DNA of 34,269 bases. Source: Verrucomicrobiaceae bacterium (GTDB lineage: Bacteria > Verrucomicrobiota > Verrucomicrobiia > Chthoniobacterales > JAATET01). The notes beneath the pieces are model-generated. The model did not search any database, was not told the origin of the DNA, and worked only from the letters and a program-made list of their open reading frames with translations. How positions within the stretch are numbered: position 1 is the stretch's first letter; every line of letters starts with the position of its first letter. The stretch covers positions 1 through 34,269 of the forward strand of contig JAIYAZ010000106.1 in assembly GCA_027488755.1 (NCBI GenBank), given 5' to 3'. Made by a program: the position numbers and the translations under genes. Below are positions 23,592 to 26,999 of this stretch, piece after piece.

Positions 23592-24833
23592 GTGAACGTC
23601 GAAGTCCTCAACACCGGCACCGAGCTGCTCCTCGGCAGCGTCGTCAACACCCACGCCGCCTGGCTCGGCCGGCAGCTTTTTCCGCTCGGCCTGCGCCTCA
23701 CGCGGCAGACCACCGTGCCGGATGGTGCGGCCATCCGCGACGCGCTGCTGGAGGCCTTCCCGCGCTGCGACGTGCTGCTCGTCACCGGCGGACTGGGGCC
23801 CACGACGGACGACATCACCCGCGAGCTGGTCGCGGAGTTGCTGGCGCGTCCGCTCCACGCAGACGCGGAGGTGCTGCGGGCCATCGAGGAACGGTGCGCG
23901 CGGCGGCGGTTTCCGTTTCAGGAGCGCATGCGTCGCCAGACGATGGTGCCCGCCGGGGCGACCGTGCTGCCGAACGCGCACGGCACCGCGCCCGGGCTTT
24001 ACCTGCCGCCGGTGAGCACGCCCTCGGAGCGCACGCCGCACTTGTTTTTGCTGCCGGGGCCGCCCCGGGAGTTGCAGCCGATGTTTGAGGCCTCGGTGAT
24101 CCCGGTGCTGCGTGAGCTCACGGGCTCGCTTGCGGCGGTGGCGTGCCGCGTCTTTCGCTGCGTGGGCATCGGCGAGTCGCTCGTGGAATCGCGCATCGGC
24201 GAACGCCTGAGCGCGCGGCCCGGGCTGGAGGTCGGCTACTGCGCGCGGCCCAATGAGGTTGACCTGCGGTTGATCGGACCGGTTGCGTTGCTCGACGAAA
24301 TCGAGCCCGAGGTGCGCGCGGAGCTCGCGGAATTCATCGTCTCCGACGACGGAGCGTCCCTTGAGGCCGTGGTCGTGAATCGCCTGCTTGCCCTTGGCCG
24401 CAGCGTGGCGACGGCGGAATCCTGCACCGGCGGCCTGCTCGCGCATCGGCTGACCAACGTGCCGGGTGCCTCCGGGGTGTTTGCCGCGGGGTGGGTGACC
24501 TACGCGAACGAGGTGAAGACCGCCCAGCTCGGCGTGCCGGCGGAGTTTTTTGCCGACCACGGGGCGGTGAGCGAGCCGGTGGTCCGGGCCATGGCCGAGG
24601 GGGCCCGCGAGCGGGCGGGGGCGGACTTCGCGCTGGCGACGACTGGCATTGCGGGCCCGGGCGGCGGTTCGCCGGAGAAACCCGTGGGCACCGTGTGGCT
24701 GGCCCTCGCCGAGCGTGGGGCGGAGACGCAAGCGTGGAGCGAATTTTTTCCGACTTCGCGCGAGACGTTCAAGGATCTCGCAACCCAGGCCGCGCTGAAT
24801 GCGCTGCGTCGACGGTTGGGCCCGACGGCTTGA
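23592..24833 (+). CDS. cinA: CinA, competence/damage-inducible and NMN deamidase-type protein
   Basis: The 413-residue protein has both CinA domains. The N-terminal molybdopterin-binding-like (COG1058) domain has NTGTELLLGSVVNTHA (7-22) and VTGGLGPTTDD (64-74); in some species this part is an ADP-ribose pyrophosphatase. The C-terminal domain (about 255-405) is the nicotinamide-nucleotide amidohydrolase (PncC) type. It has TAESCTGGLLAHRLT, where Ser277 is the likely active residue, and TTGIAGPGGGSPEKPVGTVW. It starts with GTG at 23592, with no Shine-Dalgarno. Only 2 bases separate its stop from the stop of the convergent PAS gene. A role in recycling NAD by-products fits the nearby nadD. Confidence 0.94.
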   Translation: MNVEVLNTGTELLLGSVVNTHAAWLGRQLFPLGLRLTRQTTVPDGAAIRDALLEAFPRCDVLLVTGGLGPTTDDITRELVAELLARPLHADAEVLRAIEERCARRRFPFQERMRRQTMVPAGATVLPNAHGTAPGLYLPPVSTPSERTPHLFLLPGPPRELQPMFEASVIPVLRELTGSLAAVACRVFRCVGIGESLVESRIGERLSARPGLEVGYCARPNEVDLRLIGPVALLDEIEPEVRAELAEFIVSDDGASLEAVVVNRLLALGRSVATAESCTGGLLAHRLTNVPGASGVFAAGWVTYANEVKTAQLGVPAEFFADHGAVSEPVVRAMAEGARERAGADFALATTGIAGPGGGSPEKPVGTVWLALAERGAETQAWSEFFPTSRETFKDLATQAALNALRRRLGPTA

Positions 24834-24835
24834 GC

Positions 24836-25378
24836 CTAGGCTGCGGCGAGCTTGCGCTCGACGGCCTGGAATCCGGTCACGCTGAGGTCCGCGCCGAGGA
24901 TGGGCGTGACGGAAATGTGCACGTGATAGGGCGAGCCGTCCTTGTGGTAGTTGACCATGTCGACCTCGCAGGCCGAGCCGGTGCGAATGGTTTCGCGCAG
25001 CGCGATGACGCCGGAGGGATCGGTGGCCGGCCCCTGAAGGACGTGGCCGGGCTTGCGGCCGAGCAGCTCCGGCAGGGTGTAGCCGCAGAGGCCAGTGAAG
25101 GCGGGGTTGATAGTCTGGATGTGCCCCCAGCGGTCGGTGGTGACGCGGGCGGGTTCCGCGGCGATGCGGGCGAGCAGGCCGTCGCGCACGGAGGCCGCCG
25201 GGCGGGAGATCGGCGTCACGCTGAGGGCGAGGTTCGCGAGGGCGTCGGAAAGCTCGTGCGAGACGCGGAGCAACTCGGGTCGGGCCGCGGCTTCGCGTTC
25301 AAATTCCGCCGCTTCCTCCGCGTTGAGCAGACCGAGGGCGTGGAGGCACGCGCGTTCTTCCGATTGATCTTCCAGCAT
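24836..25378 (-). CDS. Putative anti-sigma-like N-terminal domain fused to a PAS domain
   Basis: From the ATG at 25376-25378 the protein has 180 residues. Residues 1-75 read like the cytoplasmic anti-sigma domain of RskA-type proteins: SEERACLHALGLLNAEEAAEFEREAAARPEL, then LSDALANLALSVTP and a segment with LLARIAAEP. The Cys/His zinc residues seen in ZAS domains are absent. Residues 77-175 are a PAS domain: GHIQTINPAFTGLCGYTLPELLGRKPGHVLQGPATDP, then NYHKDGSPYHVHISVTPI. The LOV cysteine is not there. No transmembrane segment is visible, and no sigma factor is adjacent. It is divergent from hslO over 39 bp. The start at 25378 is chosen because a promoter (TTGATC, 16 bp, TACACT) ends 8 bases before it; 25384 is possible. 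Confidence 0.75.
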   Translation of the reverse strand: MLEDQSEERACLHALGLLNAEEAAEFEREAAARPELLRVSHELSDALANLALSVTPISRPAASVRDGLLARIAAEPARVTTDRWGHIQTINPAFTGLCGYTLPELLGRKPGHVLQGPATDPSGVIALRETIRTGSACEVDMVNYHKDGSPYHVHISVTPILGADLSVTGFQAVERKLAAA

Positions 25379-25386
25379 GACCATGC

Positions 25387-25414
25387 AGTGTATGGATTCC
25401 AACCGGAGGATCAA
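25387..25414 (-). promoter_or_regulatory. Predicted promoter of the PAS-fusion gene, leaderless geometry
   Basis: On the minus strand -35 TTGATC (25409-25414) and -10 TACACT (25387-25392) are 16 bp apart; ATG 25378 follows after 8 bases. The promoter overlaps the hslO ribosome-binding site on the other strand. Confidence 0.55.
25405..25410 (+). promoter_or_regulatory. Strong Shine-Dalgarno deciding the hslO start
   Basis: GGAGGA lies 7 bases before GTG at 25418. It is the only near-perfect Shine-Dalgarno at a start codon that I find in the window, and it points to the GTG rather than the in-frame ATG at 25433. Confidence 0.7.
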
Positions 25415-25417
25415 CAC

Positions 25418-26218
25418 GTGAGCGAAGAGAAGATGATCGATGACCGTCACGCCGAAGTGCGGACTTACTTTGTGCGGGGCCGCAATGCCCTGGTGGCCCG
25501 CGCCGATCTCGCGAGCATCTACATCGACTATCATCTTCATGTTGCGGATTACGGTTTGGGGGTGACGCCGGATGCGGCGGATTTTGCAAAACAGGCGTTG
25601 GCGGCCATGACGCTGCATTGTGCCGCCCGCCCGCGCAACGAGCGGGTGGCGTGGACGGTGAATTTCCAGAATCCCTTGCTCAATGTGTTTGTGGCCGGCG
25701 ACAGCCCGCTTGGCACGGTGGTCGCAAGAACCTTTACGGAGAACGTCAAACCCGGGACGCAGAATCTTTTTTACGCCGACGTGATCAAGGGCGACGCCGC
25801 CCCGCGCCGCAGCGTGGTCGATTTTCCCGACGGCAGTTTTTTTGCGGCTGCCGAGCGTTACTACGCCCACAGCGAGCAGCGGCCGGGGCGGTTCTTCCAT
25901 TTCGGCGGGGACGAATTTGTGCTCGTGGCCGCGCAGCCCGACTGCGATGTGCCCTGGCTTGAGGCGCTGGACGAGGCGGCCATCCGCGCCCTCGACCAGA
26001 CCGAGCAGCTTTCCCTCCTCGAGCAGCGGCAATACCGCTTTGAATGCGGCTGCACGCATGAGCGCATGATGCGCGTGCTTCTCGGGCCGTTCCGCCAGGA
26101 TGCCGAGGCGCTCTTCGAGGGCGACGAAGTCCTCCGCATGAGCTGCCCGCGCTGCGGCGCGCGCCACGCGATCACCCGCGAATCCCTCGAGGCCTACGAC
26201 CGCGCCCAGACGGCGTGA
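25418..26218 (+). CDS. hslO: Hsp33 family redox-regulated chaperone
   Basis: Hsp33 is a cytoplasmic holdase switched on by oxidative unfolding of a zinc-bound C-terminal domain. From the GTG at 25418 the protein has 266 residues. The redox switch is clear: Cys210-Gly-Cys212, 30 residues, then Cys243-Pro-Arg-Cys246, within the family range for CXC-X(27-32)-CXXC. The N-terminal domain is divergent but keeps VRTYFVRGRNALVARADL and RYYAHSEQRPGRFF, which matches the SEQ-P motif. After the linker come CTHERMMRVLLGPF and ITRESLE. Start choice rests on the Shine-Dalgarno. It is divergent from the anti-sigma-like/PAS gene, and a CHAD gene follows 40 bases later. Confidence 0.88.
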   Translation: MSEEKMIDDRHAEVRTYFVRGRNALVARADLASIYIDYHLHVADYGLGVTPDAADFAKQALAAMTLHCAARPRNERVAWTVNFQNPLLNVFVAGDSPLGTVVARTFTENVKPGTQNLFYADVIKGDAAPRRSVVDFPDGSFFAAAERYYAHSEQRPGRFFHFGGDEFVLVAAQPDCDVPWLEALDEAAIRALDQTEQLSLLEQRQYRFECGCTHERMMRVLLGPFRQDAEALFEGDEVLRMSCPRCGARHAITRESLEAYDRAQTA

Positions 26219-26258: not shown

Positions 26259-26999
26259 ATGAAGGCGGCGCGGGAATCAGAGCCCGGGTTTGAGCGGGAG
26301 ATCGGCGCGGAGTTGCGCCGGCTCGTGCGGGTCGTCCGGCGCGAGGTCGCGGCCCTGCCGGAGGACACCGAGGCCCGGATTCACGCCATTCGCACGGGGA
26401 TGAAGCGCGCCCGGGCCTGGCTGCGACTCCGGCCGGGAAAAGCCTCCCGGGCTCCGTTGGACGCCGCGATGCGGCAGTTGAAAGACGTCTTCGCCGCTCC
26501 GCGCGACGCGCTGGTGAGGACGCGGGCACGCGAGCGCTGGCTCGGCCGGAAGCCCGCGGCGGGGGCAACGCTACCGTTGCCGGCGGCCATTTCGCGGCAG
26601 GCGGAAGCCCTCGCGGAGCGCGTGGACGCCGGGGTTCGCGCGCTGGACTGGCCGGCGCCGGACCGCGCCGCGCTGCTCCGGCGCTGGGAGGAGGAATGCC
26701 GCCGCGAGCAACGCGCGGCCCGGCGCGCGGCCCGGGACGGGGGAGCGCGGAGATTTCACCGCTGGCGGGCCCGGGCAAAGGTGCTGGCCTACCAGGGCGA
26801 ACTGCTCTCGCCGCTCGCCGGGCGGGTGTCGCGGGAGACGAAGCGGGCGCATCGCCTCGGCGTTTGCCTCGGGCATGAGCATGATTTGACCCTGCTGCTC
26901 GCACGCCGCTCGGGGTTGACGAAAAAGCAACGGCGCCGCCTGCGCCGCGAGCGCGCGCTTTGGCGGGAGTGCGCCCTGCGGCTGCGGCGGCGGGATTGA
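26259..26999 (+). CDS. CHAD domain protein (polyphosphate-binding type)
   Basis: CHAD is a helical domain with conserved His and many Lys/Arg that binds inorganic polyphosphate in several bacteria. The 246-residue protein is very basic. IHAIRTGMKRARAWLRL (41-57) and FHRWRARAKVLAYQ (166-179) are the two matching halves with conserved histidines, and LGHEHDL (204-210) is the third motif. There is no CYTH domain, so it is a stand-alone CHAD protein. It lies between hslO and superoxide dismutase; since polyphosphate itself can act as a chaperone under oxidative stress, a stress cluster is possible, but that is inference. Confidence 0.88.
   Translation: MKAARESEPGFEREIGAELRRLVRVVRREVAALPEDTEARIHAIRTGMKRARAWLRLRPGKASRAPLDAAMRQLKDVFAAPRDALVRTRARERWLGRKPAAGATLPLPAAISRQAEALAERVDAGVRALDWPAPDRAALLRRWEEECRREQRAARRAARDGGARRFHRWRARAKVLAYQGELLSPLAGRVSRETKRAHRLGVCLGHEHDLTLLLARRSGLTKKQRRRLRRERALWRECALRLRRRD

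Follow-up and report, generated by a model that had tools for sequence, protein, structure and literature searches.

A predicted soluble class I anti-sigma factor with a LOV-like PAS domain in Verrucomicrobiota and its probable SigK-like ECF sigma partner

RESULTS

The ASD-PAS gene and its neighbors

The window, i.e., the whole stretch of 34,269 nucleotides analyzed here, is contig C153 of genome G000, a member of genus g1 (members examined: G000, G001, G002, and G003). The sequence-only reading had placed an anti-sigma-like domain fused to PAS, divergent from Hsp33, in the interval from 24836 to 26218. This interval spans two genes, the anti-sigma domain (ASD)-PAS gene being confined to its first part and hslO occupying the second. 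The features discussed below are as follows.

23592 to 24833, plus strand: cinA, convergent neighbor, which directly precedes hslO in G002
24836 to 25378, minus strand: ASD-PAS gene, 180 aa (coding 24839 to 25378, stop 24836 to 24838, ATG at 25378), from the open reading frame, the domain matches, and the G001 ortholog
24839 to 25153, minus strand: LOV-like PAS domain, residues 76 to 180 (PAS_9; nearest solved relatives are LOV domains)
24968 to 24970, minus strand: codon of Cys137, a residue found in 24 of the 27 aligned homologs
25085 to 25087, minus strand: codon of Cys98, a residue shared by all 27 aligned homologs
25154 to 25378, minus strand: predicted class I anti-sigma domain, residues 1 to 75 (NCBIfam, AlphaFold, Foldseek/VIA, and alignment with RskA- and ChrR-type N-termini)
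Residues 4 to 14, 20 to 32, 34 to 54, and 62 to 73 (the last to 73/74): helices of this domain predicted by AlphaFold
25408 to 25413, minus strand: TGATCC, candidate -35 element of the ASD-PAS gene, at -35 from the ATG
25418 to 26218, plus strand: hslO (Hsp33), divergent neighbor with a GTG start at 25418, from its HSP33 match; judged a bystander

The ASD-PAS gene is a real and conserved gene, as G001 carries an ortholog at the same site with ASD and PAS 60% identical to those of the window. Its stop lies two bases from the end of cinA, and its ATG at 25378 faces the GTG of hslO at 25418 across the divergent 39-bp gap that had been read at the outset. The window HslO is a genuine Hsp33, with a match to PF01430 (HSP33; E = 3.1e-12) and the zinc cysteines C-x-C (CGC) and C-x2-C (CPRC) in its translation. 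A CHAD-domain gene follows hslO (window positions 26259 to 26999), and G002 has a counterpart, 33% identical, at the same place.

hslO looks like a bystander

Proteins of the HslO (Hsp33) family are redox chaperones, and the sequence-only reading had proposed that ASD-PAS and hslO together form a redox-sensing unit. In its favor, G001 keeps the order cinA, ASD-PAS, hslO (HslO 75% identical), the 39-bp divergent arrangement, and a block of the intergenic region strongly conserved with the window. However, cinA runs straight into hslO in G002, with ASD-PAS cleanly absent between them (HslO 74% identical), and hslO of G003 lies in a different context, so that conservation of the gene pair in close relatives held for G001 and failed for G002 and G003, the arrangement being kept in two of the four genus members examined (the window genome and G001). 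Moreover, hslO had no match in any of the 56 named homolog loci, and among the 40 fetched homolog regions (27 with an ASD-PAS or short PAS gene and 13 fetched for ASD-only matches), it was found in that of G001 only. The gene lies in other contexts in G003, G008, G009, G033, and G041 and was not found in G016 and G030, both of which carry ASD-PAS; G033, from another family, has its PAS gene close to cinA, separated from it by a single gene, and hslO is not found at this place. We rejected the functional unit on this synteny and consider it highly improbable; a local insertion or loss accounts best for the pairing, and hslO looks like a bystander.

Residues 1 to 75 resemble class I anti-sigma domains

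Residues 1 to 75 matched the NCBIfam anti-sigma models NF052375 (6.3e-7) and PRK13920 (4.1e-6), both below the curated cut-offs, and a Pfam search of the same residues returned no family. Aligned with RskA-type N-termini of the same order, the window ASD shares as much as 42% identity with an RskA domain. Used alone as a PDB query, it retrieved nothing useful; a profile of 22 ASDs (11 ASD-PAS, 10 RskA-type, and 1 cupin-type) placed RslA (3.8e-6) and RskA (2.1e-5) as the top two among all PDB chains, and a profile from the ASD-PAS rows alone still ranked RslA (0.0017) and RskA (0.28) first, weakly. The AlphaFold models of the full protein (mean pLDDT, 93.4; pTM, 0.65) and of the ASD alone (mean pLDDT, 90.2) both show the four helices of class I ASDs, a three-helix bundle followed by helix 4. 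Ranks 1 to 12 of 36 in a Foldseek search of the PDB were class I anti-sigma chains only (RslA, RskA, RsiW, and ChrR), with individually weak E values (0.48 to 3.0), and VIA run on the ASD gave Z scores of 5.6 for RslA, 5.5 for RsiW, and 5.2 for RskA, modest for a helical bundle; VIA on the full-length model tested the PAS part only. Altogether, both the sequence and the predicted fold assign residues 1 to 75 to the class I anti-sigma domains. The likeness to the sigma-binding N-terminus of RskA that was first suggested for this protein is borne out by the NCBIfam matches, the PDB profiles, the four-helix model, and the Foldseek ranks, the profile searches having returned an anti-sigma relation.

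As had also been noticed, zinc ligands and a membrane helix are missing: the protein has no Hx3Cx2C zinc motif, its cysteines being at 11, 98, and 137 only, and its most hydrophobic 19-mer reaches 1.22 versus 2.14 in the RskA of the same genome. That RskA carries RskA_C (PF10099, 6e-18), which the ASD-PAS protein does not have, and in place of a C-terminal cupin there is the PAS domain. Proteins matching the ASD only are RskA-type and lie beside ECF sigma genes, one of them in the window genome, where the sigma gene at G000:C152 has an RskA of its own. Within the same order, this kind of ASD occurs in front of a membrane helix with RskA_C, a ChrR-like cupin, or PAS; the cupin form occurs in the window's own genus, where G003 has a ChrR-like ASD-cupin protein of 196 aa beside an ECF sigma gene (L149:6680-7270). 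According to PMC7406223, ~44% of class I domains lack the zinc motif, ~35% are soluble, and ~72% of the soluble ones carry the motif, and a soluble zinc-less protein is therefore of a minority type.

The PAS domain is LOV-like but lacks the photo-active cysteine

PAS_9 spans residues 84 to 171 (E = 9e-14). The nearest solved PAS relatives are LOV domains, with 7.4e-27 to a LOV variant of Chloroflexus aggregans in a PDB sequence search and, for the PAS part in VIA, a Z score of 19.4 and an rmsd of 1.1 Å over 104 residues against a LOV1 domain; the cofactor-free PAS domains of EAG/ERG channels scored 18.7 in VIA. As the sequence-only reading had stated, the LOV cysteine is absent: the window has GRKPG (GRKPGHVLQG) where LOV domains have GRNC (GXNCRFLQ), and none of the 27 aligned homologs has a cysteine at this place, the L053 row (GRKPCSFLQG) having one two places further on. 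The LOV rows of the comparison carry a Cys-to-Ala change, and the cysteine itself is visible in a LOV-type domain of the window's own genome. This domain (L264; G000:C12:5249-5557) lies in a 900-aa frame and has the photo-active cysteine motif GRNCNLLQG.

Compared to LOV domains, LQG, Gln115, Arg128, and Asn143 are kept, Val153 replaces Asn, and Glu174 replaces Gln; the best-scoring solved PAS relative is itself a Gln-to-Glu variant. We take Gln115, Arg128, Asn143, Val153, and Glu174 to occupy flavin-contact positions, some of which would thus be retained and others altered, judging from the alignment. The protein has cysteines of its own, Cys98 and Cys137, and none of the 11 further PAS_9 matches in this genome has a cysteine where Cys98 stands. 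The conservation given above for both cysteines comes from alignment A1 (27 homologs), the search for which was not selected for cysteine; the named-collection alignment A4 overstates it because its scan patterns contained cysteine.

A SigK-like ECF sigma factor is the probable partner

No sigma factor gene adjoins ASD-PAS in the window, as first reported; in other genomes, homologs do adjoin one. Seven regions have an ECF sigma gene tail-to-tail with ASD-PAS, and the named genomes show this tail-to-tail arrangement in 11 of 56 loci, 5 of which are the same contigs as fetched regions, leaving 13 distinct loci. The sigmas of the seven regions are 56 to 60% identical to a SigK-like ECF sigma of the window genome (G000:C55:47261-47830; PRK09646 at 2.7e-50, below its cut-off), which is unlinked to ASD-PAS, on a different contig. 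This C55 sigma gene is preceded by an SDR-like gene and followed by a large glycosyltransferase gene, with no anti-sigma gene beside it. In a quick tree with long branches flagged, 12 ASD-PAS-adjacent sigmas group as a single clade (SH-aLRT 99), which is nested in a 41-row clade (SH-aLRT 92) together with the C55 sigma.

Among 97 relatives, 27 have both ASD-PAS and the sigma, 1 has ASD-PAS only, 11 have the sigma only, and 58 have neither (Fisher 4e-14, with kinship ignored, related genomes not being independent). The sigma was counted at E values of at most 1e-59 (best excluded match, 4.3e-51; G015 sigma, 3.0e-60); for stand-alone ASD-PAS or short PAS, the limit was 1e-15, and frames of at least 900 aa, read as multi-domain sensor proteins, were left out. 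These thresholds were chosen after the gaps were seen. The forms of G005 and G014 are short and diverged. The genome with ASD-PAS and no sigma (G039) is 82% complete. Seven of the 11 sigma-only genomes belong to family f12, in which an RskA-type gene lies beside the sigma in all three regions fetched; the others are G015, G022, and G045 (one genus) and G086, in whose sigma regions ASD-PAS was not found. Five genera vary (g1, g15, g6, g19, and g5), all in step for both genes, the two g5 genomes without both being only 70 and 74% complete. In g1, both genes are missing from G002 (84% complete) and G003 with flanks intact: these genomes keep hemL and the glycosyltransferase gene (87% identical) with no sigma match at this site, the two genes lying 43 bases apart in G003.

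The window genome has 11 Sigma70_r2 matches, and ASD-PAS could instead be the anti-sigma factor of another ECF sigma, its co-occurrence with the C55 sigma being due to shared ancestry. Opitutaceae would fit such a reading, as they carry ASD-PAS and their nearest sigma homolog has its own RskA-type neighbor. In a class-wide sample of 286 genomes, the Opitutaceae-like family f24, which we infer from named matches to be Opitutaceae, has full-length ASD-PAS in five genomes, sigma homologs at ~1e-44, and an RskA-type match beside the sigma in all five of these ASD-PAS-bearing genomes; we therefore did not extend the sigma/ASD-PAS pairing to Opitutaceae. However, the 13 distinct loci with adjacent genes and a single sigma clade, the concordant presence or absence inside the five genera, and the sigma missing from the intact hemL-glycosyltransferase site of G003 and not found there in G002 argue against another sigma, which we regard as unlikely. 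The unlinked C55 sigma is the probable partner of the ASD-PAS protein.

Short homologs in family f7

In family f7, helices 1 to 3 are gone, and the last ASD helix and PAS are kept, most proteins being 133 to 157 aa long (short homologs at L033 to L035, L037, L039, L040, L042 to L044, L046, L052, and L053). Thirteen of 15 f7 genomes nevertheless have both ASD-PAS and the sigma, and the other two have neither. These proteins give some ground to the view that the ASD no longer inhibits the sigma, the protein contacting sigma2 via helix 4 only and serving as a positive regulator, a decoy, or an adaptor. Against this view, the window protein and 15 of the 27 aligned homologs keep the whole ASD, which fits the dual interface given for class I ASDs in PMC7406223, with helix 1 contacting sigma4 and helix 4 contacting sigma2. 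We see little chance for such an adaptor role, somewhat less even than for another sigma, and retain anti-sigma function as the preferred reading. Some of the f7 short homologs adjoin a siroheme-synthase-like gene. Tandem pairs of ASD-PAS genes occur in G016 and G052 (L036:6114-7451 and L041:3518-4897).

A promoter-like motif upstream of ASD-PAS genes

GYATCC (or a close variant)-N16-CGT was found upstream of 31 of 70 ASD-PAS genes versus 30 of 1,418 control starts, the 70 including some near duplicates and the 31 including a match of the window at -197. This strict match was discounted, as it lies opposite the hslO coding sequence. The motif precedes 12 of the 13 distinct sigma-adjacent ASD-PAS genes (at -63 to -78), all four ASD-PAS genes of g28 and g24 (at -35 or -36), and, at -55 to -58, all five Verrucomicrobiaceae- or Prosthecobacter-titled loci without adjacent sigma; it is missing from most Opitutaceae ASD-PAS genes. 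In the window, the spacing of TGATCC from the start equals that of GCATCC in the f7 orthologs, with no CGT 16 bases after it, so that only the -35 half of the motif is there. The sequence-only reading had a promoter overlapping the hslO ribosome-binding site; TGATCC does overlap the Shine-Dalgarno region of hslO (GGAGGATCA), and its promoter role is putative. The ECF-type promoter on most sigma-adjacent ASD-PAS genes suggests feedback. The motif was found upstream of none of the 12 ASD-PAS-adjacent sigma genes sampled, and we therefore do not claim autoregulation of the sigma.

Genome wide, GYATCC-N16-CGTA occurs at 17 sites in G008, 19 in G065, and 4 in G071, versus 2, 2, and 0 for the reversed control, and of the four sites in G071, two lie upstream of the two ASD-PAS genes of that genome. 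Loci were available for 30 of the 40 sites, and many of these 30 lie inside genes or without a sensible gene behind. One site lies 24 bases before the start of a lipocalin gene in G008, and G065 has the same site (L284/L285), while three g28 genomes have a variant with a 17-base spacer before a lipocalin gene. The motif is absent at the lipocalin genes L287, L288, and L293 and at L294 and L297 of the window genome. The lipocalin gene is a possible second target of the sigma and should be taken as a lead only. In two genomes, the sigma/ASD-PAS genes have a photolyase gene and genes for a cyclase-like protein and an FAD amine oxidase in their vicinity (L057:3423-5428 and L071:4140-5150), a neighborhood reminiscent of photo-oxidative stress clusters; no strict motif site was found at the photolyase and amine-oxidase genes near these pairs.

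DISCUSSION

A soluble, PAS-controlled anti-sigma protein, as the sequence-only reading had envisaged, is well supported by the sequence, the predicted fold, the sigma adjacency, and the co-occurrence. Our best explanation, with a probability of roughly 0.75, is that the ASD-PAS protein is a cytoplasmic class I anti-sigma factor whose N-terminal domain would retain the SigK-like C55 ECF sigma until a signal reaches its PAS sensor. It builds on homology, predicted fold, synteny, co-occurrence, and promoter-like sites, from which we infer binding, inhibition, release, and the nature of the signal. Several observations fit it less well: ASD-PAS and the sigma lie on different contigs in the window genome; G015, G022, G045, and G086 keep the sigma without detected ASD-PAS, and G039 is the reverse; the nearest sigma of Opitutaceae has its own RskA-type neighbor; f7 proteins are devoid of helices 1 to 3; and the window promoter is a -35 half only, with ASD-PAS-adjacent sigma genes lacking the motif.

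We propose a model in which a LOV-derived PAS sensor takes the place that the membrane and periplasmic regions have in an RskA-type protein. Without signal, the four-helix ASD would bind sigma2 and sigma4 of the C55 sigma and thereby keep it inactive. The PAS domain would read a signal from the cytoplasm, be it a bound ligand, the redox state, or an oxidant that attacks the conserved cysteines, and the complex would then weaken and release the sigma. In relatives, the sigma would probably transcribe the ASD-PAS gene itself, resulting in a negative feedback loop. A more ambitious hypothesis, which we advance tentatively and would not expect to hold in full, is a widespread verrucomicrobial one-protein switch, in which a LOV-derived PAS domain, devoid of the photo-cysteine but equipped with a new pair of conserved cysteines, senses an intracellular oxidative or light-derived signal and gates a SigK-like ECF sigma; in f7, where the ASD has shrunk to one helix, the sensor may have taken over sigma binding.

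Most of the studied ECF anti-sigma factors read their signals via the membrane or via zinc. With a soluble anti-sigma factor that bears PAS, ECF control would respond directly to cues from the cytoplasm (redox, ligand, or light), and ASD-PAS would provide a partner for orphan-looking sigma genes. A single bacterial order that combines the same kind of ASD with membrane, cupin, or PAS sensors would also offer a natural parts kit. Our literature search found no PAS-bearing anti-sigma factor of ECF sigmas, a tentative result as subscription papers and supplements lay outside the search; the whole word "PAS" is absent from the main text of PMC8103513.

By sequence and predicted fold, the ASD-PAS protein is a member of the class I anti-sigma factors and is neither RskA, ChrR, nor a LOV photoreceptor; it would work like ChrR in plan and like RskA in its anti-sigma domain. 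With RskA-type proteins (SigK-RskA; PDB 4nqw), it shares a four-helix N-terminal ASD without zinc ligands, alignable with RskA N-termini of the same order, and a SigK-like sigma as probable partner, but it has PAS in place of a membrane helix and RskA_C, and its partner is not encoded next to it in the window genome. With ChrR (ECF11 SigE-ChrR; PDB 2q1z; features compared as given in PMC6852236), it shares the soluble two-domain plan of an ASD and a C-terminal sensor, whereas it has no zinc site, PAS instead of the cupin, and a sigma of a different subfamily. Finally, with LOV and LOV-like PAS domains (CagFbFP and YtvA), it shares the fold (Z of ~19; rmsd, 1.1 Å) as well as LQG, Arg128, and Asn143, and it differs from them by the missing photo-active cysteine, by Val153 and Glu174, and by its own invariant Cys98 and conserved Cys137.
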